Source: Clostridia bacterium (GTDB taxonomy: Bacteria > Bacillota > Clostridia > Christensenellales > Aristaeellaceae). From it: a DNA stretch of 43,701 nucleotides. Shown here one piece after another: positions 1-12,331 of this stretch (position 1 is the first letter of the stretch; the number at the start of each line of letters is the position of its first letter). The stretch covers positions 1 through 43,701 of the forward strand of contig JAFZOG010000122.1 in NCBI GenBank assembly GCA_017550745.1. Reading direction: 5' to 3'. The notes beneath the pieces were generated by a model. That model did no database searches. It saw only the letters and a list, made by a program, of their open reading frames with translations, and had not been told where the DNA came from. Made by a program: the position numbers and the translations under genes.

Positions 1-384
1 ATATTCGTGCCTGCACCAGATATCATGATCCCTTTGCCACGCATAGGAATAGTAGATCGCAAAGCAGCCCATTTCATGCCCGTCGGGCGCTTTTTCACCC
101 GTCCAGAAGACGTCTTCCTCGCCGCCCGTGGCTTTTACCACTTCCTCGTCCGGCAGCTTTTGAATCTCCGCCGCCGTTTTTTCCCGGCGCGCCTGCTCCG
201 CTTCCGTGATCGCCTCCCGAATGTCCGCTTCCGTCAGGTCATAGCCCAGCTTGGAGGCGATTTGGGCGCATACGCGGACGAATTCCTCCCCGGTCGTCGG
301 CTTCGTCCTTCCCTCATACAGCTTCTTCGCTTCAGGATCAGCCTGCAAGCGTTCCAGAAATATTTTCACTTTCTCCGTTGCCAT
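1..384 (-). CDS. RiPP precursor P10, Nif11-type leader, type 2 core (partial)
   Basis: The gene starts at ATG 384, six bases after a GGGGAGGAAA ribosome binding site, and runs off the window start, so at least 128 residues are visible. The first ~90 residues form a Nif11-like leader (helical, D-P near residue 16, KLGYDLTEADI in the middle) that ends in ATGG, the expected Gly-Gly cleavage site. The core is not of the common type in this array. It begins with acidic and aromatic residues, then has APDGHEMGC, a Tyr-rich stretch, and DIWC. This closely matches the core of P2 (4122-4559). It lies 31 bases after P9. More precursors, or a transporter, could follow beyond the window edge. The modification is unknown. 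Confidence 0.85.
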   Translation of the reverse strand, partial: MATEKVKIFLERLQADPEAKKLYEGRTKPTTGEEFVRVCAQIASKLGYDLTEADIREAITEAEQARREKTAAEIQKLPDEEVVKATGGEEDVFWTGEKAPDGHEMGCFAIYYSYAWQRDHDIWCRHEY

Positions 385-415
385 GGCGGTTTCCTCCCCA
401 TTTTATCACACGGTC

Positions 416-865
416 TCAGATTTGGCCATAGTAGTTCTGCCCGCAATGATAAAATTCATAGTAATGAAAGTTTTGATCGCATCCGTCGCTGCTCCGGCAG
501 TTTTCCCCGTCTATATACGTGAACCTGCAGCTGCCCAGCTCCGTCCAATCCCCGATGGCGGAAACGCATTCATCATGATGCTTTGTTTTTCTGTCCCTGC
601 CGCCGGCCGCGTCAACCAGGTCATCGTCCGGCAGGGCCTGAATATCCGCCGCGGCTTTCTCCGTCTTTTCGGCGCGCTCCTGCTCCGCCGCCGCGATTCC
701 ATCCCGGATTTCAGCTTCTGTCAGGTCGAAGCTCAGTTCCTTCACGATCCCGGCACAGACCTTTATTGCCGCCTCAAAGCTCTCCGGTTTCGCGCGCTTG
801 CCCAGCAGGTCCTTTGCCTTTGGATTGGATTTCAGCTTTTCCAGAATTTCATCGAATTGTTCCAT
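416..865 (-). CDS. RiPP precursor P9, Nif11-type leader, type 1 core lacking late cysteines
   Basis: 149 residues. The leader starts two residues shorter than its paralogs (MEQFDEILEKL) and ends in AAGG. The core has a longer lead-in with one extra Cys, then the array's signature: four cysteines separated by 9, 5 and 11 residues, with E-N before the second, D-G before the third, D after it, and Tyr at +7 and +10. The protein stops eight residues after the fourth Cys, exactly where most paralogs have a fifth Cys; the stop codon is TGA. The ribosome binding site (AAAGGACGG) is about 14 bases from the ATG, further than in the other precursors, so it may be translated less well. The 113-base gap upstream keeps a weak trace of the maturase 3' end at 910-920. 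Confidence 0.85.
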   Translation of the reverse strand: MEQFDEILEKLKSNPKAKDLLGKRAKPESFEAAIKVCAGIVKELSFDLTEAEIRDGIAAAEQERAEKTEKAAADIQALPDDDLVDAAGGRDRKTKHHDECVSAIGDWTELGSCRFTYIDGENCRSSDGCDQNFHYYEFYHCGQNYYGQI

Positions 866-948
866 TGATATCGTTTGAACCGTCCTTTTGATTTCTTGCC
901 GCGTTTTCCGGGCAGTCTGGAAATGTCAAGCGTCAGATGGGCAAGGAT

Positions 949-981
949 GACGGAAGGCGCTCAAGCGCCTTTCCGCCGTCA
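949..981 (-). other. Hairpin directly after P8
   Basis: Arms 952-960 and 965-974 pair with a four-base loop and a one-base bulge, immediately after the P8 stop codon. There is no T-run on the transcribed strand, so it is not a standard terminator. Similar hairpins follow P6 and P7. Confidence 0.5.
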
Positions 982-1422
982 GGAAATGAATTCCTGACAT
1001 TCCATCATTTCCTGGAGATTGCATCTTTTTCCACGCTGATTACGGCTGCAGAGATATTCCGGATAAGTCAGATAACTCAGGTCACAAGCGTCATTCCACC
1101 AGCAGTTTTCCCTGTCCTGGAAGGTGTCTTTGCAATTATGGTGGCTTTTTCCGCCCGCCGTCTTTTCCAGTTCGCTGTCATCCAGCTTTTGGATTACCTC
1201 CGCCTGGGCGTCGGTCTTTTCCTTCCGGTCTGCCGAAGCCTTTTTGAGATAGTCCGCCAAATCCGCCGCGTCCAGGTCATAACTCAGCTTCTTCGCTGCT
1301 TCGATCAGCTTGAGGGCTTTTTCTTCCTCGCTCCTGGGCGGCTCCAGGCCCTTGAACAATTCCTGCGCTTTGGGGTCTGCCATAAGCTTTTCCAGGATTT
1401 CCTTCACATTTTCGATGGCCAT
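979..1422 (-). CDS. RiPP precursor P8, Nif11-type leader, six-Cys type 1 core
   Basis: 147 residues, starting at ATG 1422 behind AAGGAGGAAA; a longer in-frame start at 1449 has no ribosome binding site. The leader runs from MAIENVKEILEKL to LEKTAGG and is almost identical to that of P7. The ~56-residue core has four cysteines spaced 9, 5 and 11, then two more after gaps of 8 and 7. Visible landmarks are ENCW, NDACD and the Y-x2-Y-x-C ending of the motif. P7 and P8 differ much more in core than in leader, the usual pattern for duplicated RiPP precursors whose products diverge. The region upstream (1447-1485) resembles the region upstream of P1 including a trace of the maturase 3' end. Confidence 0.9.
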   Translation of the reverse strand: MAIENVKEILEKLMADPKAQELFKGLEPPRSEEEKALKLIEAAKKLSYDLDAADLADYLKKASADRKEKTDAQAEVIQKLDDSELEKTAGGKSHHNCKDTFQDRENCWWNDACDLSYLTYPEYLCSRNQRGKRCNLQEMMECQEFIS

Positions 1423-1480
1423 GGAGGTTTCCTCCTTGTATGATTGCAAACGCTTCCGCGCTTTGGTTCAAGAATATACA

Positions 1481-1510
1481 GGCAGAGGGAGAAGCGTTTC
1501 TCCCTCTGCC
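1481..1510 (-). other. Strong hairpin between P7 and P8
   Basis: A perfect 13-bp stem (1481-1493 with 1498-1510) and a four-base loop lie between the P7 stop and the P8 start. On the minus strand it is followed by TGTATATTC, which is only weakly T-rich. It may stabilise or process the polycistronic mRNA, or weakly attenuate transcription of P8-P10. That role is inferred. Confidence 0.6.
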
Positions 1511-1532
1511 GGGTCAAGGCATCCTTCCGCCG

Positions 1533-1976
1533 TCAGAAAAGGATTTCCTGGCAATTCGCCATTTCATCTAAAGCGCATATTTTATCGTTCAGGTTATGGT
1601 TGCAGAGATAACCCGGATAGATTTCATAATTCAGGTCGCAGGCGTCAGTCCTCCAGCAGTTTTCTTTGTCCTGGAAGGTGTCCTGGCATTCGCCGTGGTC
1701 CCTTCCGCCGGCGGCCTTTTCCAATTCGCTGTCATCCAGCTTCTGGATCGCCTCCGCCTGGGCGTCGGTTTTTTCCTTCCGGTCGGACGCGGCCTTTTTG
1801 AGATAGTCCGCCAGGTCCGCCGCGTCCAGGTCATAGCCCAGCTTCTTCGCCGCTTCGATCAGCTTGAGGGCTTTTTCTTCCTCGCTCCTGGGCGGCTCCA
1901 GGCCCTTGAACAATTCCTGCGCTTTGGGGTCTGCCATAAGCTTTTCCAGGATTTCCTTCACATTTTCGATAGCCAT
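1533..1976 (-). CDS. RiPP precursor P7, Nif11-type leader, six-Cys type 1 core
   Basis: 147 residues from ATG 1976, with GGAGGAAA upstream; the longer in-frame extension to 2048 runs through a hairpin and is unlikely to be translated. The leader is nearly identical to P8 and ends LEKAAGG. The core has ENCW, TDACD and YPGYLC, with the invariant 9/5/11 cysteine spacing and two further cysteines after 8 and 7 residues. It ends in a hydrophobic tail like P4 (SEFIF) and P8. The gene is separated from P8 by 110 bases containing a strong hairpin. It is probably a substrate of the radical SAM protein at 5131-6594. Confidence 0.9.
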   Translation of the reverse strand: MAIENVKEILEKLMADPKAQELFKGLEPPRSEEEKALKLIEAAKKLGYDLDAADLADYLKKAASDRKEKTDAQAEAIQKLDDSELEKAAGGRDHGECQDTFQDKENCWRTDACDLNYEIYPGYLCNHNLNDKICALDEMANCQEILF

Positions 1977-2004
1977 AGAGGTTTCCTCCGTTCCTTTTAG
2001 CATT

Positions 2005-2031
2005 CGGAAGGCCGCGCGGGGCGGCCTTCCG
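2005..2031 (-). other. GC-rich hairpin between P6 and P7
   Basis: Arms 2006-2015 and 2021-2030 are perfectly complementary (10 bp, extendable by one pair) around a five-base loop. No T-run follows on either strand, so a role as a terminator is unlikely. Confidence 0.55.
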
Positions 2032-2044
2032 GTTGACGATGGGA

Positions 2045-2437
2045 TCATTCATTCATCTTCTGGATCCACTGGCATTTATACCCTCTGTAATTCCTCCATG
2101 CCACATCGCAGGCGTCGTAGAAAGCGCAGTTCTCATGATCCTCGTAGGTTTCAAAGCAGTTGTCGTGATCCCTCTTGCCGCCGGCGGCCTGTGCCACTTC
2201 CTCATCGTCCAGCGCCTGGATCGCCTCGGCCTTCGCGTCGGTCTTTTCCTTGATCGCCTGGGCATAGGCGTCGAAGTCTTCCTTGGTCAGGTCAAAGCCC
2301 AGCTCCTTGGCCACGCCGATGAGGGCGGCGATCTTTTCGTCCTCGCTCTTGAACGGGGGCAGGTTTTTCAGCAGCTCCTGTGCCTTGGGGTCCGCAGCGA
2401 GCTTTTCCAGGGTGTCCTTTACCTTTTCGATTGCCAT
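2045..2437 (-). CDS. RiPP precursor P6, Nif11-type leader, four-Cys short core
   Basis: 130 residues, the shortest complete precursor. It starts at ATG 2437 behind AAGGAGGAAA. The leader (MAIEKVKDTLEKL onward) ends AQAAGG. The core has only the four signature cysteines at spacing 9, 5 and 11, with HENC, YDACD and Y-x2-Y-x-C. It stops eight residues after the fourth Cys at a TGA, where six paralogs have a fifth Cys. P6 therefore shows the minimal unit of the core. The sequence just upstream (2482-2521) repeats the 3' end of the maturase gene and the following bases, so this gene or its ancestor once stood directly behind a maturase gene. Confidence 0.88.
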   Translation of the reverse strand: MAIEKVKDTLEKLAADPKAQELLKNLPPFKSEDEKIAALIGVAKELGFDLTKEDFDAYAQAIKEKTDAKAEAIQALDDEEVAQAAGGKRDHDNCFETYEDHENCAFYDACDVAWRNYRGYKCQWIQKMNE

Positions 2438-2496
2438 GATGATTTCCTCCTTGTTTTGTTCTATCTCAAAATGGTGACCCACTTTGATTTTCTTTG

Positions 2497-2521
2497 TTAC
2501 GGGCAGTCCGGCGCTTCGCCC
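2497..2521 (-). repeat. Duplicated 3' end of the radical SAM gene
   Basis: These 25 bases are identical to 5131-5155, the last eight codons including the stop of the maturase gene. The match also includes an 8-base block at 2482-2489 that corresponds to 5116-5123 at the same spacing. The repeat lies between P5 and P6 and is not part of any gene there. It is a remnant of a duplication that included the maturase/precursor junction. Confidence 0.85.
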
Positions 2522-2536
2522 GCCGTGTTCACATAT

Positions 2537-3085
2537 CTACACTTTTATCATCCCAAATGGACAATTAATAATTATATCCTGATACTCTTCTATAACCTCA
2601 GCGGTGACAATCATGAGATCGCAGAAGAACATTTGATCGCACGACGCGCCTAAAAATCCGCACGAATTCCCGTTGTAATTGTTTTTGCAGATATAATTGT
2701 TGTAATCCTGATAATTACGGTCACAGCCGTCCGTATGCGAGCAGTTTTCCCGATCCAGGAAAGAATCCTTGCATTCCGCATGACCTTTTCTGCCCAACTC
2801 CGAACGACTTTTTCCGCCCGCTGCCTGCGCCACATCGTTATCCGAAAGGCGCTCGACCTGCGCAACCGCTTCCTCCGTCTGGGCTTTCCGCTGTTCCGCC
2901 GCGGCCCTGATCGCTTCCGCGAATTCTTGTTCGTTGATTTCAAAGCCCTGTTCTTTCGCCAGAGCCACCAGAGTCGCCAACGCTTCCGCCCCGCTTTTGG
3001 CCGCTTTGATCTTTTCAAGTGCTTCCTTCGCCTGAGGGCCTTTCTTGAGTTCTTCCAGCAGTTCCATGATCTTTTCCGTTGCCAT
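2537..3085 (-). CDS. RiPP precursor P5, Nif11-type leader, extended eight-Cys core
   Basis: 182 residues, the longest precursor, from ATG 3085 with GGAAGGG upstream. The leader starts MATEKIMELLEELK and ends AQAAGG. The core begins with a basic lead-in, then the signature four cysteines (9/5/11) with RENC, TDGCD and YNNYIC. Four more cysteines follow, including a C-x5-C step ending MFFC that is shared only with P1. The C-terminal part is long and hydrophobic/acidic, with no match in P1 beyond that point. It overlaps nothing and is 21 bases downstream of P4. The extended tail could be a follower peptide or part of a larger product. Confidence 0.88.
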   Translation of the reverse strand: MATEKIMELLEELKKGPQAKEALEKIKAAKSGAEALATLVALAKEQGFEINEQEFAEAIRAAAEQRKAQTEEAVAQVERLSDNDVAQAAGGKSRSELGRKGHAECKDSFLDRENCSHTDGCDRNYQDYNNYICKNNYNGNSCGFLGASCDQMFFCDLMIVTAEVIEEYQDIIINCPFGMIKV

Positions 3086-3106
3086 GGTGATCCCTTCCTT
3101 TCCAGA

Positions 3107-3568
3107 CTAAAAAATGAATTCTGAACAGTCTAAAACCGCGCCGGAACTGCAGTGGCGGCCTGCGTCATTGTGATCGCATAAATAGTATTTGTATTCATTC
3201 ACGTTCTTATCGCACCCGTCATTCGTCCAGCAGTTTTCCCGGATCAAAAATGTACTTTTGCAGTCATTTTTGTCCCAGCTATGACAAAACTCCTCTCCGC
3301 CAGCCACCTTGTCCAATGACTCATCCGCCAGTTTCTCCACGCCGGACGCTGCCTGCTCCGTCTTTTTCATGCGTTCTACGGCTGCGCTGGCGATTGCATC
3401 AAGGATGTCTTTTTCCGTCACGCTGAGGCCTTGCCGCTTTGCGGCCGCGACACAGCAGCGAACGATTTCATCCTTTTTATCGTTCAGGACAAGATTGCTC
3501 AATGCGTCCTTCGTTTGGGGGTCAGCCTGGATAACTGTCAACAGTTCCTTTACCTTTTCGATGGACAT
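3107..3568 (-). CDS. RiPP precursor P4, Nif11-type leader, seven-Cys core
   Basis: 153 residues from ATG 3568, seven bases behind GGAGGAAA; a start at 3583 is possible but would put the binding site inside the gene. The leader is somewhat divergent (MSIEKVKELLTVI, with KRQGLSVTEKDI) and ends KVAGG. The core starts with EEFCHSW, an extra Cys not seen in its neighbours, followed by the signature four cysteines at 9/5/11 and two more at gaps of 8 and 7. ENCW and NDGCD are present. The motif position that is aromatic in other members is Val here. Confidence 0.88.
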   Translation of the reverse strand: MSIEKVKELLTVIQADPQTKDALSNLVLNDKKDEIVRCCVAAAKRQGLSVTEKDILDAIASAAVERMKKTEQAASGVEKLADESLDKVAGGEEFCHSWDKNDCKSTFLIRENCWTNDGCDKNVNEYKYYLCDHNDAGRHCSSGAVLDCSEFIF

Positions 3569-3628
3569 AACGCTTTCCTCCACGCTGCAAAGCTCTTCGC
3601 GTGCTTGATCAGCTACTTCTGCCTGTTA

Positions 3629-4084
3629 TTATTGGTTTACTTTAATGACTTGCTGACAATTGTAGTTTTCCGTTTTGGCGCAATGGAACCCTAAGTCATT
3701 ATGGTTGCAGAGGTAATCCGGATAATACTGCCAATTCTGATCGCAGCCGTCATTGTACCAGCAGTTTTCTTTATCCTGATAGGTGTCCCTGCAGGCAGAC
3801 TTATCCTTTTTGCCGCCTGATACTTTTTCAATTTCGTTGTCGTCCAGCTGCCGGATCGCCTCGGCCTGGGCGTCGGTTTTTTCCAGCCGGGCCGTTAAGG
3901 CTTCCATGAAATACTCCGCCATTTCCGCGGCAGTCACCTGAAAGCCCAGCGCCGCGGCGGCTTCTGCGTACTTCCTGATTTTTTCCTCCTCGCTCTTGGG
4001 CTGTTCCTTGCCCTCCAGCAGCGACCGGGCGGCGGGGTCCGCGTTCAGCTTTTCCAGAAAAGCCTTGATCTGTTCCTTTGCCAT
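3629..4084 (-). CDS. RiPP precursor P3, Nif11-type leader, six-Cys type 1 core
   Basis: 151 residues from ATG 4084 behind AAGGAGGAAA; the in-frame extension to 4207 overlaps P2 and is rejected. The leader (MAKEQIKAFLEKL) ends KVSGG, the only member with Ser before the double Gly. The core has the signature 9/5/11 cysteines with ENCW, NDGCD, YPDYLC, then cysteines after 8 and 7 residues. It is probably modified by the upstream radical SAM protein. The gene lies 37 bases after P2 and 60 before P4. Confidence 0.9.
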   Translation of the reverse strand: MAKEQIKAFLEKLNADPAARSLLEGKEQPKSEEEKIRKYAEAAAALGFQVTAAEMAEYFMEALTARLEKTDAQAEAIRQLDDNEIEKVSGGKKDKSACRDTYQDKENCWYNDGCDQNWQYYPDYLCNHNDLGFHCAKTENYNCQQVIKVNQ

Positions 4085-4121
4085 GATGATTTCCTCCTTC
4101 ACGATTCGCTGGTTTCTATTT

Positions 4122-4559
4122 TCAGTCATGCCCGCTGTGAGGACATTCAGCAAAAGTATGTTGATATGTTCCATTGCAATAATACATCTGTTTGCACCAG
4201 ATATCATTATCCTTCTGCCACTTATAGGTATGGTAGGTCAGCACGCAGCCCATTTCATGCCCGTCCGGGGCATCTTCGCCTTCCCAGAAAGCGCCGCCCG
4301 CGGCCTTTTCCACATCGCTGTCGGCCAACTTTTCTACCGCTTCCACCTGGGCGTCGGTCTTTTCCTTCCGGGCCGCCAAGGTTTCCCTGAGATAGCGTTC
4401 AAGATCATCTGGAACCAACTCATAGCCCTTTTCCTTTGCGAGCCGGAGGATCGCCTGTAATTTTTCTTCCCCGTTCTGCGGCAGTTCCCTGTCGTTCAGC
4501 AAAGCTTTCGCGTCAGTGCCAATGCTTTCCAGAAATTCCTTCACCTTTTCGTTTGCCAT
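4122..4559 (-). CDS. RiPP precursor P2, Nif11-type leader, type 2 core
   Basis: 145 residues from ATG 4559, 16 bases after the P1 stop, with AAGGAGGAAA upstream. The leader (MANEKVKEFLESI to EKAAGG) is of the same family as the rest, but the core is different. It starts AFWEGEDAPDGHEMGC, continues with Tyr/Trp-rich sequence to DIWC, then has YYC and AEC, giving four cysteines. It lacks the ENC and DGCD landmarks. The only relative in view is P10. A shared leader on unrelated cores indicates that one leader-directed enzyme set handles two product types. Confidence 0.88.
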   Translation of the reverse strand: MANEKVKEFLESIGTDAKALLNDRELPQNGEEKLQAILRLAKEKGYELVPDDLERYLRETLAARKEKTDAQVEAVEKLADSDVEKAAGGAFWEGEDAPDGHEMGCVLTYHTYKWQKDNDIWCKQMYYCNGTYQHTFAECPHSGHD

Positions 4560-4575
4560 AAAGGTTTCCTCCTTC

Positions 4576-5076
4576 TTAGCCATGAATATATCCATGAACG
4601 CAGATTTCTGAACCATCATAGCTAATATTTTCACAGAAAAACATGTAATCACACCATGTCCCCATGTTGCCGCAATGCTGATCCTTATAATTGTTGTGGC
4701 ATACGTAATCATCATAATCCTGATAGTTTTTATCGCAGCCGTCGTTGTACCAGCAGTTTTCCTTGTCCAGAAAGGTATCCTTGCAATTGGAATGGCCCTT
4801 CTTTCCGCCTGCCGCTTTTACCAGCGCATCATCCGGCAGGGCCTGGATATCCGCCGCAGCTTCCTCCGTCTTTTTCATGCGTGCCTTGGCTTCCGCCTCG
4901 AAGGCCTCCCGGATTTCTGCCTCCGTCACGGTGAAGCCTGATTTCTTTGCCGCTTCCATGAGGTAGCGGACGATTCCGTCCTCTCCCTCAGCCTTGATGA
5001 TCTCCCGCAGCGTTTCGTTTGCCTTGGGGTCGGCCTGGATTGCCTTCAGCAGTTCCTTGATCTTTTCGTTTGCCAT
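4576..5076 (-). CDS. RiPP precursor P1, Nif11-type leader, extended eight-Cys core
   Basis: 166 residues from ATG 5076, 54 bases downstream of the maturase gene and with GAAGGAGGAAAA upstream. The leader runs MANEKIKELLKAI to KAAGG. The core has the signature four cysteines spaced 9, 5 and 11 (ENCW, NDGCD, YDDYVC), then four more, including the C-x5-C step ending MFFC that it shares with P5. It is first in the array and so is likely the best expressed. Families with Nif11-type leaders are known substrates of several RiPP enzymes; pairing with a radical SAM/SPASM enzyme suggests carbon-centred cross-links or thioethers, which is inference. Confidence 0.9.
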   Translation of the reverse strand: MANEKIKELLKAIQADPKANETLREIIKAEGEDGIVRYLMEAAKKSGFTVTEAEIREAFEAEAKARMKKTEEAAADIQALPDDALVKAAGGKKGHSNCKDTFLDKENCWYNDGCDKNYQDYDDYVCHNNYKDQHCGNMGTWCDYMFFCENISYDGSEICVHGYIHG

Positions 5077-5130
5077 GCTGTTTTCCTCCTTCAATATTTT
5101 TCAAGCGCTCCTGCGCTTTGATTCATGGGA

Positions 5131-6594
5131 TTACGGGCAGTCCGGCGCTTCGCCCTCGGGCATGGGCACGCCGGGCTTCCGTTCCTTGGGGGGATTGCGC
5201 TTGAGGTAGGCTTCAAAGGCGTCCTTGGCCGCGGCGGTGACGCGGGCTTCGCCGTCGTGCTCGAAGAACCAGCACAGGTCGGGGTCGATGCCGTAGTAGT
5301 CGTCCCCCGCCATCAGCGCGGCATTCCGGCAGCCGCCGGTGCATTTGTCGATGTATTTGCACTCCCGGCACTTGGGGTTCGCGTCCCGGATTTCGCCCAC
5401 CTTAGCGTGGCACAGCTTGGTAAACTTTTCACCGTTCAGGATGTCTTTCAGCGGCGTATCAAACAGATTCTGGAAATTCTTGGCGTAGCCGCAGTCGGCC
5501 ATGCCCATGCAGGGACACACCATGCCTTCCGCGCCGATGTAGAAATTGTTCAGCAGCACGCCGCAGGAGGGCATTTGCATTTCATCCTCTTTGCTGCATA
5601 CCCGGCGGTTGTAAATCTCCCATTTGGGGTCGCCGGGGGTGTACATGAACACGCCGGCCATCATGATAGACAAGGGCGCGTCGTCCTCGAAATACTGGGG
5701 AATGTATTCCTCAAACATCTGCAATTCTTCTTCCCTGGTCAGCTGCAGATCGTGCAGTTCCGGCTGGGCCCATTCGCCAAGCTCCATCATGGAGCCGCAC
5801 TTCATGCTGCGCACGCCCAGGGAGGCCATCAGCTTGATGGATTCCCGCAGGACGTGGCGGTTCTTCCGGTGCATGCACATGGACACGGACACGGGATACT
5901 TCCGCTCCTGCAAGAGCTTCAGCGCGTGCAGCGTCCTTTCCTCAGCCCCGGGCACGCCCCGCAGGAAATCGTGCCAGCCCACACCGTCGAAGCTCAGCTG
6001 GAAGGGCGGATGCACGTGGCGCTTGTCCAGCTCGTCCAGGAATTTTTCGTCCACCAGCCAGCCATTGGTGTAGATGGTGGCGATACCGATCTCCCGCTCG
6101 TTCAGGGCGTCGATGATGTCCAGGAAGTCTTCACGGATCAGGGGCTCGCCCCCGGTGAGGCCCGTCTGGAAGACGCCGCACTCCGCCAGTTGATCGGCGA
6201 TGGTGATGATCTGCTCGTGGGTAGGCGCGCCGTGTTTGGCGTGGGGCGCGGACATGAAGCAGTGGCGGCATTTCAGGTTGCACGCGCCGGTGATGGACCA
6301 ATGCACCTGCCGCTTGTAGGGAGCCGGATAGACCTTGTATTCCTGCTCCGGCTTCAAAAATTCCGCAAACTCCGCCGGACGGATCACCCCGGCTTTTGTC
6401 ACATCCTCAAACAGCTTCTTTTCCCGGTCGGAAAGATTGTTTTCCTCGATATCATGCGCCCCGTCGCAGCGCATCAGGAACAGGAACAGGTCCTTGGGAA
6501 GGAATTTGGACGTTTTCGCCGCCGTGTCGTAGATCCCGGTGTGTGCGTCCTGCCAGCCCCGCAGGCGGTAGCGTTCGTTCAAAATGTATTTCAT
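5131..6594 (-). CDS. Radical SAM/SPASM peptide maturase
   Basis: 487 residues from ATG 6594 behind AGGAGGG. Residues 1-85 look like a small winged-helix domain of the kind that recognises RiPP leaders. The radical SAM core follows, with the C-x3-C-x2-C cluster motif at Cys105, Cys109 and Cys112 and TGGEP at 147-151. The C-terminal SPASM region (about 330-445) has many cysteines, including pairs at 360/362, 409/412 and 418/422, which would bind auxiliary Fe-S clusters. Such proteins install cross-links on precursor peptides using S-adenosylmethionine. The gene directly precedes ten Nif11-leader precursors, which are its likely substrates. The exact reaction cannot be read from sequence. The short C-terminal tail EGEAPDCP is duplicated upstream of P6. 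Confidence 0.93.
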   Translation of the reverse strand: MKYILNERYRLRGWQDAHTGIYDTAAKTSKFLPKDLFLFLMRCDGAHDIEENNLSDREKKLFEDVTKAGVIRPAEFAEFLKPEQEYKVYPAPYKRQVHWSITGACNLKCRHCFMSAPHAKHGAPTHEQIITIADQLAECGVFQTGLTGGEPLIREDFLDIIDALNEREIGIATIYTNGWLVDEKFLDELDKRHVHPPFQLSFDGVGWHDFLRGVPGAEERTLHALKLLQERKYPVSVSMCMHRKNRHVLRESIKLMASLGVRSMKCGSMMELGEWAQPELHDLQLTREEELQMFEEYIPQYFEDDAPLSIMMAGVFMYTPGDPKWEIYNRRVCSKEDEMQMPSCGVLLNNFYIGAEGMVCPCMGMADCGYAKNFQNLFDTPLKDILNGEKFTKLCHAKVGEIRDANPKCRECKYIDKCTGGCRNAALMAGDDYYGIDPDLCWFFEHDGEARVTAAAKDAFEAYLKRNPPKERKPGVPMPEGEAPDCP

Positions 6595-6741: not shown

Positions 6742-7413
6742 CTATATTTTATCCAGCGAGTAGCCCTCGCCCCGCGAATAGGCGACCCGTTTTCCGGTTC
6801 CTCCAATTTCCAGTTTTTTGTTAAGCCTTGACACGGTGGTATGCAAAGCGCTCAGATCGTCGCCGGCCTCCGTGCCCCAGACCGCGCGGTACAGCTCCTC
6901 TTTCCCGATCATACGATTGGGGCTGCGCAGGAAGGCCAGCAGCATTGAAAACTCCTTCCGGTTCAGCTGCAAATCCGTGTCTCCGTAATAGGCGATCATT
7001 GCCGACAAATTTATCTGCAGCCCCGACTTGTTTGCAGGCCGCTTTTTCCGCCTGACTGTCCTGAGCCGCGCTTCGATCCGGGCAAGGAGCACGCCGATGT
7101 CGTAGGGCTTGGGCAGATAATCGTCCCCGCCCGCCCGAAGCCCGGCGATGATCTGTTCGTTTTCGCCCATGGCAGAAAGGAACAGGATGGGGATGTCATA
7201 CGATTCCTTGATTTGCCTGCACAGAGTCAGGCCGTCAGTGTCCGGCAGGATGATGTCCAGCACGATCAGATCAATGTCACGGGCCTTCAGGGCGGCCATA
7301 CATTCCCGGCCGTCCTTCGCCTTCACCACGTCATACCCTTCCATGACCAGCGCTTCGTGGTTGATTTCCATGATGTGGGGGTTGTCTTCTACCAGCAGGA
7401 TCGTATGGCTCAT
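6742..7413 (-). CDS. OmpR-family response regulator
   Basis: 223 residues. The receiver domain (1-120) has the acidic pair E9-D10, the phosphate acceptor D53 in VLDIILPD and K102 in PKPYD. The second half (about 128-223) is a winged-helix DNA-binding domain with LNRKEFSML, the HTTVSRLNKKL recognition helix and GEGYSL at the end. It overlaps the kinase gene by four bases (ATGA), so the pair is translationally coupled. The gene sits between the kinase and the maturase operon, and an inverted repeat recurs upstream of both promoters. Its likely job is to switch on the RiPP operon; this is inferred from position and the shared site. Confidence 0.93.
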   Translation of the reverse strand: MSHTILLVEDNPHIMEINHEALVMEGYDVVKAKDGRECMAALKARDIDLIVLDIILPDTDGLTLCRQIKESYDIPILFLSAMGENEQIIAGLRAGGDDYLPKPYDIGVLLARIEARLRTVRRKKRPANKSGLQINLSAMIAYYGDTDLQLNRKEFSMLLAFLRSPNRMIGKEELYRAVWGTEAGDDLSALHTTVSRLNKKLEIGGTGKRVAYSRGEGYSLDKI

Positions 7414-9353
7414 TTTGCTTCCTCCTTGGGTACTGTGAAACGGAAGGAGGTTCCCTCCGGGCCGGTAGACGTCATTTCAAGCGTGCCGCCGTGCATCTGA
7501 ACGGTGTCCATGCATATGGCCAGGCCCAGCCCATTGCTGCTGTCGGTTGAGTATCCTTTTTCAAAGATATGGGGAACCGCGGATGGATCGATGCCCTCGC
7601 CCGTATCTGAAACGGTGATTTCCACATAATCTTTATTGTCTTCCGCCGTTACGGTGATGGTTCCTTCCTCGGTATGCCGGCTGGCATTGACGATCAGGTT
7701 CACCAACACCTGAAAAAGCAGTTCCTCGTTTCCATGAATTTTGGACACGGTGTTGTTCCGAAAGGCCAGCGTGTTCTTTCGCTTGGCGCACACCGGCGTC
7801 ATGATGGTGGATACGCTGCGGAACAGTTCATCCGCGTCCACGGCGTTCATTTCCGCTTTCTGGATATGCCCGTACGTGTAATCCATGAGCCGCATCACCA
7901 TCTCTGCCAGCCTGTCCGCCTCGCTTTGAATGGTTTTCAGGCGCTCCGGTATTTTATCGCTCATGGTTCCGCGCTCCATTTGCCGCTTGATCAGCTGGGC
8001 GTAGCCGGAAATGACGGTAAGCGGCGTTTTCAGTTCGTGGGCTACCGTGCGTAGAAAATCGTTGTTTGTGGCGTTGATTTGCAAAAGCAGGTCATTGCGC
8101 TGCCGTTCCTCCCGGAGCTGTATCGTCTGTCTGCCGATCTTTTCATTGTTGACGACGGCCAGCAGCAGAATGCATACCACCATCGCCAGCGGCGTGATAC
8201 CGAAATGGTTCACAAAAGAATCGCTACCGCTCGCCATGCCCTCCCGGATGAGCATAAATACAAAGAAGGAAATGGCGGCCAGCGTCGCTACGTCCAAAAA
8301 TCCCGGTTTTTGTTTTCGGAAGACTTGTATCAGCCGGAACACGAACCAAATCAAGAAAGGGAAACAGACGTAATAGCAGATATGACACAACATGACCAAA
8401 GCATGGGTATCAAGAATAAAATGCAGGGCTGATAGGATCAGGAAAAGAACCGCAAATCCCAGAAGCGTCCTTTTTCCGATTGCCTGCGGAAAGAACGCGG
8501 CAAGCAGGAATGACGCCGCCATGGGGATACACGACACGTCCAGCAACAATAGCCGATACGCGATGATGAAATCAAAATTCAGCGAAAGCAGATGCTCCGA
8601 AAAGAAAACCTGATTCCGTAATGCGATCACAAGGCAGCACAGCGCAAGCGCGGCGTACTCCCGGTTTTTCTGGAAAGCTGCGCACAGCAGGAAATAGAAA
8701 AACAGCATCATCAACCCGCCGCCGATGACCATGGCGTTCAGCGTCAGCCCCCGTTGGTATTCGTCGATATTCTCCGGCGTGGAGATCAGCGTATTTTGGA
8801 TGAAGCCGCCTTCATTGTGCATGAAGTTCGCGTACTGGTAGATGATTTCGATTTCGCCGCTTTCCCCGGAATACAGGGGCAGCGTAATATACCGCACCTT
8901 CGGTACCGCCTGGCCGGGATCATCCGACACAAAGCCGATATTGCGCACTTCCGCGCCGTTTACGAAAATGCGGGTGCTGTAATCGATGGAAAAGGAACAG
9001 AGGCAAAGATAACAGTCCGGCTTCGCCAGGATACGGAGCCGCCAGGTGCCTTTCACCGCATCCAGCGGGCTGTCGTTATTCTTTTCCGGGGCGGACGCGG
9101 GATCGGCAAAGTCTTCCGGCCTGAGCAGCTGCCCCGGATAGTAATCCCACTTATTGAGTATGTGGTAAACGTCCGCGTTAAAATCAACATCCCGCGCGTC
9201 CATTATCCCATCCGCCGGGGTCAGCACGGGAAACCCTATCTGGACACGGTTTCCGCATTCAATGAAAAACACAGAGGTTAGAAGCAGCACCATCACAGGC
9301 AGAAGATACCGCCGCACAATGCCCAAACACTTCCTCCAGTACAAAACACTCAC
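7410..9353 (-). CDS. Membrane sensor histidine kinase, 7TM-type
   Basis: 647 residues, GTG start at 9353 behind GGAGAAGG. A membrane segment at about 17-31 is followed by an extracytoplasmic domain (32-205, beta-rich, as in 7TMR-DISM sensors) and about seven membrane helices (207-400). The HisKA domain has HELKTPL with the phospho-acceptor His439. The ATPase domain has the N box (NLIVNASRH, about 552-560), DTGEGI and GLGLAI. The signal is unknown; the architecture does not resemble the AgrC-type peptide receptors. With the adjacent regulator it forms a complete two-component system directly upstream of the RiPP operon, and it has its own strong promoter with the shared operator. Confidence 0.92.
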   Translation of the reverse strand: MSVLYWRKCLGIVRRYLLPVMVLLLTSVFFIECGNRVQIGFPVLTPADGIMDARDVDFNADVYHILNKWDYYPGQLLRPEDFADPASAPEKNNDSPLDAVKGTWRLRILAKPDCYLCLCSFSIDYSTRIFVNGAEVRNIGFVSDDPGQAVPKVRYITLPLYSGESGEIEIIYQYANFMHNEGGFIQNTLISTPENIDEYQRGLTLNAMVIGGGLMMLFFYFLLCAAFQKNREYAALALCCLVIALRNQVFFSEHLLSLNFDFIIAYRLLLLDVSCIPMAASFLLAAFFPQAIGKRTLLGFAVLFLILSALHFILDTHALVMLCHICYYVCFPFLIWFVFRLIQVFRKQKPGFLDVATLAAISFFVFMLIREGMASGSDSFVNHFGITPLAMVVCILLLAVVNNEKIGRQTIQLREERQRNDLLLQINATNNDFLRTVAHELKTPLTVISGYAQLIKRQMERGTMSDKIPERLKTIQSEADRLAEMVMRLMDYTYGHIQKAEMNAVDADELFRSVSTIMTPVCAKRKNTLAFRNNTVSKIHGNEELLFQVLVNLIVNASRHTEEGTITVTAEDNKDYVEITVSDTGEGIDPSAVPHIFEKGYSTDSSNGLGLAICMDTVQMHGGTLEMTSTGPEGTSFRFTVPKEEAK

Positions 9354-9550: not shown

Positions 9551-10258
9551 TCATATCAGTCTGCCCATGATTTCATTCACATCACCGCAGAGCACAAGAC
9601 TGGCTTTGCTGTCGGCGGGCGTAGGCTCTTTGTTGATGACCACCAGGTTTTTCCCGCTGAAATAATCCAGGAAAGAAGCTGCGGGCTCCACGGACAGCGA
9701 TGTTCCCGCAACGATCAGCGTGTCCGCGCCGGAGATTTCCCTGCACGCGCCAATACACACATATTTGTCCAGCGCTTCGCCATACAGCACCACAGAAGGC
9801 TTGATGACGCCTCCGCAGTGGCGGCAGCGGGGAATGCCCTCCGATGCCCGGACGGCATCTAAGGAAAAATGGGCATTGCAGTCCATGCAATAGTTATCAT
9901 GGATGGATCCGTGGATCTCATATACCCGCCTGTTCCCCGCCGCTTTATGCAGGCCGTCAATATTCTGCGTCACGATACCCCGCAGCTTGTCCCGCTTTTC
10001 CAGTTCATACAGATACAAATGCGCAGCGTTGGGCTTCGCGTCCGGATGGATCATGTATTTCCTGTAAAAAGAGAAAAAAGCCTCCGGATGCAGATAAAAG
10101 AAAGATTTGCTTAGGATCATTTCAGGCGAAAGGCCGTCTGCTTCCCTGCTGTAAATTCCCTCCGCCGAGCGGAAATCCGGGATGCCGCTGGCGGTGGATA
10201 CGCCCGCACCGCCGAAAAAAACGATACGCTTTGAACAGTCAATGATTTTTTGCAGCAT
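9551..10258 (-). CDS. Sir2-family NAD-dependent protein deacylase
   Basis: 235 residues from ATG 10258, seven bases behind GAGGAAG; a longer frame to 10291 runs into the lysS terminator. The Rossmann motifs GAGVSTASGIPDFR and TQNIDGLH are intact, the catalytic His lies in YEIHGS, and four zinc cysteines appear as CMDC and CRHC. GTSLSVEP marks the NAD site. It removes acyl groups from protein lysines, consuming NAD. It is the last gene after lysS, separated by a terminator-like hairpin, and is convergent with nothing. Sirtuins sometimes accompany peptide clusters, but here the link to the RiPP locus is only proximity. Confidence 0.93.
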   Translation of the reverse strand: MLQKIIDCSKRIVFFGGAGVSTASGIPDFRSAEGIYSREADGLSPEMILSKSFFYLHPEAFFSFYRKYMIHPDAKPNAAHLYLYELEKRDKLRGIVTQNIDGLHKAAGNRRVYEIHGSIHDNYCMDCNAHFSLDAVRASEGIPRCRHCGGVIKPSVVLYGEALDKYVCIGACREISGADTLIVAGTSLSVEPAASFLDYFSGKNLVVINKEPTPADSKASLVLCGDVNEIMGRLI

Positions 10259-10301
10259 GGCATGCTTCCTCTTCGTCTGAAAATAAACCAAAATCCGGTC
10301 G

Positions 10302-10334
10302 AAAAGGCCCCGTCCGCCAAAGCGGGCAGGGCCT
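10302..10334 (-). terminator. Terminator after lysS
   Basis: A GC-rich stem (AGGCCC...GGGCCT, one mismatch and one wobble) with a TTTG loop is followed by TTTT on the minus strand, 15 bases after the lysS stop. Confidence 0.75.
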
Positions 10335-10348
10335 CATTGATTCTGTCA

Positions 10349-12331
10349 TCAATACATTTTCGCGCCGGCGGGGATGTGATCGTCCAGCATCAGCAGGTGA
10401 AGCTTTTCTTCTCCATTCTCATGATGCAGGGCGCTGATAAGCATCCCGCAGGATTCGATCCCCATCATGGGCCGGGGCGGCAGATTGGTGATGGCGACGC
10501 AAGTCTTTCCAATCAGCTGTTCCGGCTCATAGAAAGCGTGGATACCGCTGAGGATCGTGCGGTTTTGGGGCGTACCGTCATCCAGGGTGAATTTCAGCAG
10601 CTTCTTGGACTTGGGCACCGCTTCGCAGGCAATCACCTTCACCGCGCGGAAATCGGACTTGCTGAACGTTTCAAAGTCAACGGTATCCTGGAACAGCGGC
10701 TCGATCACGACGTTGGAGAAGTCGATTTTCTCTTCAACAGGCGCCGCTTTTTCGGCTTCCTGCGCCGCTTTACAGTCCTCCTGAGAGGGGCAGGTAAAGC
10801 ACGCGCATTCGAGTGCTTCGGCCTTTGCCTCTGCCTTTTCGGGCTTTTCCTTGTCCAAAGGTTTCATTGTCGGGAAAAGCAGCACATCGCGGATGGACTG
10901 CGCGGATGTGAGCAGCATCACCAACCGGTCCACGCCTACGCCCAGGCCGCCGGTGGGGGGCATACCGATTTCCAGCGCGTTCAGGAAATCCTCATCCACG
11001 CCCTGGGCTTCCTCATCCCCCTGCGCTTTCAGAGCCGCCTGGGCTTCAAAGCGCTGGCGCTGGTCGACCGGGTCATTGAGCTCGGAAAATGCGTTGCCAT
11101 GCTCACGGCCCAGGATGAACACCTCAAAGCGCTCCGTGTAGGCCGGATTATTCGGCATCTTCTTGGCCAGCGGCGAAATTTCAACAGGATGGCCGTAGAT
11201 GAAAGTGGGCTGCACCAGGTTTTCTTCCACGTACTCGTCGAAAAACAGGTTCAGGATATCGCCTTTTTGGTGGCGCTGCTCGTAGTGAATCTTGCGCTCG
11301 TCGGCGATGGCGCGGGCTTCCTCCAGCGTGTGGATCTCATCAAAGTCCACCCCGGAATACTTCTTCACCGCTTCCACCATGCTCATGCGGGCGAAGGGCT
11401 TTTCAAGGTCGATGGTCACGTCCCCGTACTGCACGACGGCGGAGCCGTTTACCACCCGGGCCACATAGCGGAACATGTCTTCCGTTATATCCATCATGCC
11501 GTGGAAATCCGTGAATGCCTGATACAGCTCCAGCATGGTGAATTCCGGGTTATGCTTGGTATCCATGCCCTCGTTGCGGAACACGCGGCCGATCTCGTAC
11601 ACCCGGTCAAAGCCGCCCACGATCAGGCGCTTCAAATGCAGTTCCAGGGCAATACGCAGGTACATATCGATGTCCAGGGTATTGTGGTGGGTGATAAAGG
11701 GCCGCGCCGCCGCGCCGCCCGCCTGGGTATGCAGCACGGGGGTTTCCACTTCCATAAAGCCCCGGCCTTCCAGGAAGGCGCGGATGGCGGAAATGATCTG
11801 GCTGCGCTTGCGGAAAGTGTCGCGCACTTCAGGGTTCACCACCATGTCCAGATACCGCTGGCGATAGCGCAGATCCATATCCGTCAGGCCGTGGAACTTT
11901 TCGGGCAGGGGCTTGAGGCACTTGGCCAGCAGCGTCAGCTCCTCGGTGTGGATAGAGATTTCCCCGGTCTTGGTTTTAAACACCTTCCCCTTGACGCACA
12001 CCACATCGCCGATGTCCATTTTCTTGAACGCGGCATAGGCTTCCTCGCCCACGTCGTCCCGGCGGATATAAAACTGCATATTGCCGTCGGTGTCAAGAAG
12101 CCGCGCGAAGGAAGCCTTGCCCATGATGTTCCGGGCCATGATGCGTCCGGCCAGGGTCACTTCCTTGCCTTCGTAGGCGTCATAATCCGCCCGGATCTGG
12201 CTGCTCTTGGTGTCCACCTCCGCCTTGGTGAGCAGATAAGGGTCCTGTCCGCTTTCCCGCAGGGCGTTAAGCTTATCGCGGCGAATCTGTTCCTGCTCGG
12301 AATAGATGGGGATATTCTGTTCCTGCGCCAT
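10349..12331 (-). CDS. lysS: Lysyl-tRNA synthetase with fused C-terminal tRNA-binding domain
   Basis: 660 residues; ATG 12331 is preferred because GAGG lies seven bases upstream, though ATG 12337 is possible. Residues ~55-145 are the anticodon-binding OB fold, and ~160-490 the class II core with motif 2 (FRNEGMD) and motif 3 ([11 protein letters not shown]). Ordinary bacterial LysRS ends there. This protein continues with a charged linker holding four cysteines (CACFTC and a Cys six residues later, ~509-520) and a ~115-residue domain (from ~545) that resembles the C-terminal tRNA-binding domain of MetRS and Trbp111. It probably improves tRNA capture. It is in an operon behind greA. Confidence 0.95.

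Follow-up and report, generated by a model that had tools for sequence, protein, structure and literature searches.

Tandem precursor genes with Nif11-like leaders and fixed cysteine frames behind a radical SAM/SPASM maturase gene in a Clostridia bacterium

How might a single radical S-adenosylmethionine (SAM) enzyme serve a whole row of peptides whose cores vary? The question is raised by the 43,701-nucleotide contig JAFZOG010000122.1 (contig C161 of assembly GCA_017550745.1; hereafter the window) from a Clostridia bacterium of the family Aristaeellaceae. The source genome spans 3.75 Mb in 186 contigs and is 88.78% complete with 7.45% contamination. Open reading frames (ORFs) and their translations place ten consecutive precursor genes, P1 to P10, on the minus strand directly behind a gene for a radical SAM/SPASM maturase (487 residues; 5131..6594, minus strand), as an initial annotation of this DNA had claimed. 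Along this strand the order is histidine kinase, response regulator, maturase, P1 to P10 and contig end, with intergenic gaps of 16–113 bases from the maturase to P10. Base 1 of the window is the contig end; the array runs off the contig there and P10 is cut, so the array holds at least ten genes. Ribosomal precursors with leader and core thus stand beside a modifying enzyme, the arrangement by which a cluster for ribosomally synthesized and post-translationally modified peptides (RiPPs) is recognised. We consider it likely that this is a RiPP locus making a peptide family, in which the maturase would crosslink cysteine frames and leave the other positions free.

The frame itself was found in every core except those of P2 and P10, eight of the ten in all. 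In these type A cores the spacing C-x9-C-x5-C-x11-C is exact and is accompanied by ENC, D-[AG]-C-D and Y-x2-Y-x-C, in agreement with the motif first proposed for them. The eight minus-strand genes are P1 (4576..5076, eight cysteines), P3 (3629..4084, six cysteines), P4 (3107..3568, the six-cysteine frame with one further cysteine ahead of it), P5 (2537..3085, eight cysteines), P6 (2045..2437, the shortest complete type A core, with four cysteines only), P7 (1533..1976) and P8 (979..1422), which form a recent duplicate pair, and P9 (416..865, five cysteines). When each core was shuffled 20,000 times the spacing arose with a frequency of 0.00015–0.00245; the eight are homologous, and these values are not independent events. 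A fifth and a sixth cysteine (x8, then x6–7) follow in P1, P3, P4, P5, P7 and P8 and are missing from P6 and P9. The initial annotation was right about the four-cysteine frame but had overlooked these additional cysteines and the second scaffold carried by P2 and P10.

Comparison beyond the window separates fixed from free positions. We aligned 18 type A precursors: eight from the window, two from contig C138 of the same genome, four from a Bacillota metagenome-assembled genome (MAG) of sheep duodenum (L043), two from G200, one from G065 and one of the two in G014. Nine residues are invariant in all 18, namely C1, the Glu two before C2, C2, the Asp four after C2, C3, the Asp directly after C3, two Tyr and C4. 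Eight positions are invariant and ten exceed 2.1 bits of entropy in a set of 20 distinct type A segments of 29 residues; one conserved Tyr is Pro in a segment on contig C30 of G065, the lone case. Because those nine residues never vary in the aligned precursors, the proposal of a combinatorial family, its scaffold fixed and its remaining residues variable, is borne out at the level of sequence. Cys-X3-Asp at Cys2 was present in 18/18 aligned precursors and in 20/20 distinct segments found without demanding the Asp (our other motif expressions required it, and for the A-prime cores and the sister array described below it stays part of the filter). A three-residue cyclophane (W-x-N) was put aside, with Trp next to Cys2 in 13 of the 20 distinct cores and Asn two positions on in eight.

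P2 (4122..4559, minus strand) and P10 (1..384, minus strand, cut by the contig end) share a different core, type B, which reads G-E-x-A-P-D-G-H-E-M-G-C-x16-C. Four more cores of this kind, two each in G183 and G076, conform by eye to G-E-x-A-x-D-G-H-E-x-G-C-x16-C (4/4), where they lie beside maturases 61% and 60% identical to that of the window. Because it recurs in these genomes, type B is a real second scaffold.

A more striking case of a fixed frame is the sister array on contig C101 of G023 (L180, 158–16733), from the same genus, where 22 precursor-like genes follow a single maturase that shares 39% identity with that of the window. Seventeen are A-like and five B-like (two of the five identical); across 80 pairs, the mean likeness between A-like and B-like leaders is 0.48. 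In one A-like gene only the leader end is in frame and the CxxC tail is missing; judged by its sequence it is probably broken, and it was dropped, the identity figures coming from the other 16. In these the mean pairwise identity was 0.70 for the leader and 0.67 for C1 to C3; it was 0.44 over the 12–13 residues after C3, 0.55 for the C..H.W stretch and 0.30 for the CxxC tail, and only 0.15 (0.03–0.48) for an internal loop of 14–27 residues between C..H.W and CxxC. These values describe a fixed frame around a hypervariable, almost randomised loop. Two identical GG-leader ORFs without the cysteine frame also lie within this array (9736–10086 and 10148–10498).

The leaders tie the ten genes together. 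They run 87–91 residues up to GG in all ten and align mutually along their whole length, which bears out their description as related leaders of about 90 residues ending in GG. In a genome search with PF07862, P3, P5, P6 and P10 scored over the cut-off on their own stretch, P2 and P7 were added when neighbouring in-frame stretches were counted (6/10), and P1, P4, P8 and P9 were not listed. By hmmscan the same model placed two of the nine precursors given (P3 and P6) over the cut-off and six below it, with no match for P9. TIGR03798 matched all nine precursors given, P10 not being among them (E 9.6e-6 to 0.54), and none reached its cut-off of 32.3 bits, the best scoring 25.8. We call the leaders Nif11-like because they are mutually homologous while their scores against curated cut-offs are mixed. 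No NCBIfam model was passed by the nine window precursors or by the ten relatives' precursors given. In a predicted structure of P7 the leader is helical, with a predicted local distance difference test score (pLDDT) of 75–88 at residues 1–70, and the core is modelled unreliably; an argument about disulfides from this model was set aside in either direction. In a fold search the precursor model matched nothing at E≤0.001.

Leader and core have not travelled together. P7 and P8 have 86 of 91 leader residues identical with a synonymous divergence (dS) of 0.26, against 31 of 56 and a dS of 0.73 in the core. The opposite holds for P10 and the corresponding gene where contig C176 ends, with 41 of 88 leader residues identical (dS 0.98) and a core dS of 0. 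Since dS differs in opposite directions between leader and core in these two pairs, their sequences show separate histories of the two parts. The P10 match consists of 141 identical bases, window 1–141 and C176 (L031) 1–141, covering seven codons up to GG and the type B core. That both contigs end at this match is probably an assembly break in a repeat. We attribute the figure of exactly 141 bases to the overlap length of the assembler, and the stretch of core that is truly shared may therefore be longer; the place where identity begins is real whatever that length. Two G014 genes are a counter-case, alike in both parts (leader 71/83, core 69/84). Eight pairs were compared in all, with dS uncomputable for the P1/P5 and P1/P4 cores. 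These pairs gave no sign of positive selection on the cores, dN/dS being below 1 wherever dS was computable and above zero, and the claim is therefore limited to the difference between leader and core.

We then considered the enzyme. The maturase matches Pfam Radical_SAM (4.2e-19) and SPASM (1.9e-8) over the Pfam cut-offs; it has the SAM-cluster motif CNLKCRHC, of the CxxxCxxC type, and SPASM cysteines at C344, C362, C409, C412, C418, C422 and C441. The SAM-cluster cysteines and all seven SPASM cysteines are invariant in 22 aligned maturases. Its AlphaFold model has a pLDDT of 88.8, and the N-terminal ~90 residues may be read as RiPP recognition element (RRE)-like; alignments to SuiB and SkfB begin at maturase residues 3 and 8, the well-tested region being residues 90–481 only. 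Among NCBIfam models the best 25 of 82 matches were all below cut-off. The highest scores among the matches listed were for ScmE (106.4 bits, cut-off 400) and WgkB (91.9, cut-off 650). Sactipeptide maturase models scored far lower than their thresholds (AlbA 56.5 against 850, SkfB 56.9 against 300, StsB 88 against 625), as did TIGR04103, the nif11-class radical SAM maturase 3 (72.5 against 725). The PapB model NF047865 was not among the best 25 of 82, the lowest of which scored about 55 bits; a second maturase of the same genome, on contig C164, scored 58.6 against its cut-off of 340.

From these parts we infer the following route. A two-component system ahead of the maturase and the precursors would regulate the locus, and the RRE-like domain of the maturase would bind the Nif11-type leader that the precursors have in common, after which iron-sulfur chemistry would join the core cysteine frame by crosslinks, most likely thioethers, with the other positions staying variable. 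Cleavage after GG and secretion would fall to an exporter of the NHLM type, an ATP-binding cassette (ABC) transporter with a C39 peptidase, which was found beside relatives but not on the window contig. The genes would multiply through tandem duplication, and leader and core would recombine as modules. As to activity, our guess is that the peptides serve competition or signalling among gut bacteria.

Which bond would the enzyme form? Within the RiPP reading a thioether is the first choice, and one we somewhat favour, because the cysteines are the fixed points of the cores. Placing it specifically between Cys2 and the Asp four residues on is a good deal more tentative; it would follow from analogy, CX3D being the motif linked by PapB (PMC9413430). 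The strongest alternative keeps the radical SAM array and assigns it other products, namely C-C or C-O links or epimers on aromatic or acidic residues, with disulfides formed after secretion. The Tyr pair is invariant and Phe or Tyr is conserved beside cysteines, and ScmE and WgkB are among the best NCBIfam scores listed. Foldseek also returned SuiB as the top structure for the maturase (4e-17), and SuiB is an enzyme that forms C-C bonds. However, the aromatic residue next to Cys2 is not conserved across the distinct cores and all four cysteines are, and the odd cysteine counts of P4 (seven) and P9 (five) disfavour full disulfide pairing. We regard non-thioether products as possible and rather improbable. 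The fold could not be used to choose: SkfB, anSME, ChlB, SuiB and CteB fall within 1.7 Z of one another, so the bond is not readable from it.

The closest named maturases come from ruminant gut MAGs. The check proposed with the initial annotation, a search for the core motif beside radical SAM genes, found type A cores recurring beside maturases of 71–74% identity: L043 (74%) has four type A precursors followed by NHLM exporter genes, and L154 (71%) has two and exporter genes. In genomes of the same family the maturases are 60–72% identical; G200 has two type A genes and an exporter, and G076 has one A-prime gene (a core type defined below) besides its two of type B. The NHLM_micro_ABC1 model was exceeded in L043 (919.7, cut-off 853.3) and NHLM_micro_ABC2 in L153 (732.8) and L154 (718.4; cut-off 709.4). 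Contig C164 of the window's own genome exceeded both (ABC1 947.2, ABC2 712.7), and the exporter of L043 contains a C39 peptidase. No NHLM exporter was found on the window contig. A STAS protein and a SpoIIE-type phosphatase adjoin the exporter in all of L030, L153, L154 and L160.

The system is rare. A type A model matched 20 of 308 family genomes at E≤0.001, several in the leader only, and at 1e-15 just one of 391 class genomes, the window's own. The maturase at 1e-60 was found in 7/396 order genomes and 3/398 phylum genomes, the own genome included in each.

More distant maturases (~36–42% identical) adjoin A-prime cores, typically C-[AS]-[AS]-[ST]-V-E-x-G-S-x-C-x3-D-x-C, most of which retain the 9/5 cysteine spacing; other related maturases lie beside 'WCF.DY.C' repeats or Gly-rich 'C.C' cores. 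In a tree of 39 maturases, 23 of which we labelled by core type, the labels need four changes, the minimum for five labels; shuffled labels needed 11.6 on average, and 0 of 200 shuffles were as low. The ten maturases of the window's clade group with support 100/100. This is the second of two trees. In the first (38 maturases) the core types formed perfect clades; the second added seven maturases from G076, G183, G065, G088 and G200 and dropped six rows of the first (L069, L072, L076, L077, L078 and L087), and in it G076 splits the A-prime label once, giving two changes. It represents 26 of 80 loci, the A-prime relatives G248 and G384 not among them; L161 is labelled A-prime despite two type B genes and L184 is unlabelled despite a B-like gene. 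By and large, the core types track the enzyme clades. Precursors with C-[WF]-x-D-Y-x-C-like repeats have their own maturase clade (L037, L038, L040, L061, L066 and L070, Clostridiales and Atopobiaceae MAGs among them), and Gly-rich C-x-C precursors another (L036, L047 and L052–L055, Synergistales MAGs included). At L046 (2928–6914) about a dozen tiny GG-leader ORFs stand in a row beside a 41% identical maturase, several with zinc-finger-like cores.

On contig C108 of G183 (L162, 3007–7678) two maturases (61% and 39% identity to that of the window) stand among type B and A-prime precursors. This adjacency, together with a type B frame unlike that of type A, would be expected if P2 and P10 served a different enzyme or were passengers, so that one enzyme did not handle two frames. 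We think this unlikely: the leaders of P2 and P10 belong to the type A leader family, the 61% identical maturase of G183 lies directly after two type B genes, and the sister array of G023 mixes its A-like and B-like genes behind one maturase.

Another alternative makes the cores disulfide-rich bacteriocins that stay unmodified and gives the maturase some other target. The cores have many cysteines, and a GG ending is common to leaders of class II bacteriocins (PMC2887384). An absence also fits this alternative: five of the ten maturases in the window's clade have no precursor in the stretch examined. None was seen at the Atopobiaceae MAG maturase (L045; 61% over 289 residues), where the contig stops, in 9.4 kb at a Solobacterium MAG maturase (L044; 52%), or in the stretches examined for G065, G088 and the second G183 enzyme. 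Type A genes of G065 lie on separate contigs (C30, and C31 with no maturase in 16 kb), and four of eleven genomes examined (G014, G069, G094 and G096) lack a maturase at E 1e-30 despite precursor-model matches. Against the bacteriocin alternative, the array opens with the maturase gene, the enzyme adjoins the same core types in other genera, the maturase clades broadly track the core types, and disulfides alone would not call for the Asp, Glu and Tyr conserved among the cysteines. We hold it very unlikely.

By our reading the CxxC tail of the sister array resembles a zinc ribbon. A role in metal uptake or buffering, with metal-binding products in place of antimicrobials or signals, is nevertheless highly doubtful: the relatives' A-prime cores do end in C-x(n)-H-x-W ... 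C-x2-C or CPxCG ... CxxCG, but the window cores have no zinc-ribbon-like tail, library matches to putative zinc-binding families were weak, below cut-off and limited to one other relative's precursor, and hypervariable loops would be unexpected in a metallophore.

If crosslinking by one maturase is accepted, how new is the system? The nearest known likeness is with the prochlorosins and synechococsins (ProcM, SyncM), in which many Nif11-leader precursors with variable cores are served by one promiscuous enzyme and some genes are distant from it (PMC10783134); the G065 type A genes off the maturase contig recall this last point. Here the array enzyme has Radical_SAM and SPASM domains and is not a LanM-type synthetase (LanM was looked for in the array), and most members share one fixed cysteine frame, with a second fixed frame besides. 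The Nif11-leader peptides with NHLM export described by Haft, Basu and Mitchell in 2010 likewise combine a Nif11 leader, GG, paralogous expansion and an NHLM ABC pair, but with cyclodehydratase or LanM machinery, and the term 'radical SAM' does not occur in the main text of that paper (PMC2887384). Ruminococcin C, a sactipeptide of a gut Firmicute with five precursors and two radical SAM enzymes, also has multiple precursors with four strictly conserved cysteines; those precursors are 63 residues long and 70–87% identical (PMC6779426), whereas here they have 130–182 residues, a Nif11-like leader, ten copies, one array enzyme and cores down to 43% identity in the compared pairs. Ranthipeptides of the PapB/freyrasin type, with a SPASM enzyme, share the Cys-X3-Asp conserved in the core (PMC9413430). 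The present frame has one such motif and not six, and the maturase falls outside the NCBIfam PapB model. PapB-type ranthipeptides also have a leader other than the one found here. The SynChlorMet enzyme ScmE and WgkB give the maturase its best NCBIfam scores among the matches listed, yet these are far under the cut-offs.

That the core motif belongs to no described class has stood up so far: no NCBIfam cut-off was passed by the precursors given or, among its matches listed, by the maturase, and in titles and abstract beginnings of the open-licence papers listed we found no description of these cores or this enzyme clade, a description elsewhere being possible. Natural combinatorial RiPP biosynthesis on Nif11-like leaders is known; what sets the present array apart is that its enzyme is of the radical SAM/SPASM kind and that its two cysteine frames stay fixed. 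The broader statement, that gut arrays of ten to about 20 radical-crosslinked peptides in two frames, with one enzyme and with leader and core swaps, are an undescribed RiPP class with kin in further phyla, falls a little short of probable. If true, it would describe a natural display library of crosslinked mini-scaffolds whose frames show variable residues or a hypervariable loop of 14–27 residues. This would carry the prochlorosin idea over to radical chemistry on a conserved cysteine frame, in which evolution marks fixed and free positions; the function of the prochlorosins themselves is still unknown (PMC10783134). The array offers a ready test of how one SPASM enzyme copes with many cores, two frames suited to structure solution by NMR and a natural template for crosslinked peptide libraries, and it points to a gut maturase family whose core types broadly track enzyme clades.

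Ahead of the maturase, in the same orientation, lie the genes for a response regulator with receiver and winged-helix domains (6742..7413, minus strand; Pfam Response_reg 1.1e-27, Trans_reg_C 4.5e-14) and a sensor histidine kinase (7410..9353, minus strand; Pfam HisKA/HATPase_c). The remaining window genes look like housekeeping genes, the calls being judged by eye. Searches of viral contigs, plasmids and phages with the maturase, and of plasmids with the array DNA as well, returned no match at the limits used (megablast, E 1e-60 and E 1e-40), which leaves an origin in a mobile element unsupported here. A defence role was rejected, the PADLOC matches of the maturase being viperins only and spanning the radical SAM core.

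The claim that one maturase serves the precursors holds for this array and not for the genome, which has the 40% identical enzyme on C164 and the start of another on C138 (88% over 52 residues). Contig C138 (L030, 1–8644) carries in a row an exporter ABC2 gene, a GG peptide, a STAS protein, a SpoIIE-type phosphatase, a histidine kinase 69% identical to the window's, a regulator, two type A precursors and the maturase start; it may be a second locus or a strain variant, with precursors ahead of the enzyme. An AGGAGG site had been assigned to every precursor. By eye, the exact string precedes five of the ten (P1, P2, P3, P6 and P8), P4, P7 and P10 have GGAGG upstream, and P5 (AGGAAGG) and P9 (AGGACGG) have neither. 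A terminator scan gave one minus-strand candidate between array genes, the hairpin in the P7–P8 gap. This hairpin, a perfect 13 bp (1481–1510), and a perfect 11-bp hairpin in the P6–P7 gap (2005–2031) both lack a long T run and perhaps tune expression.

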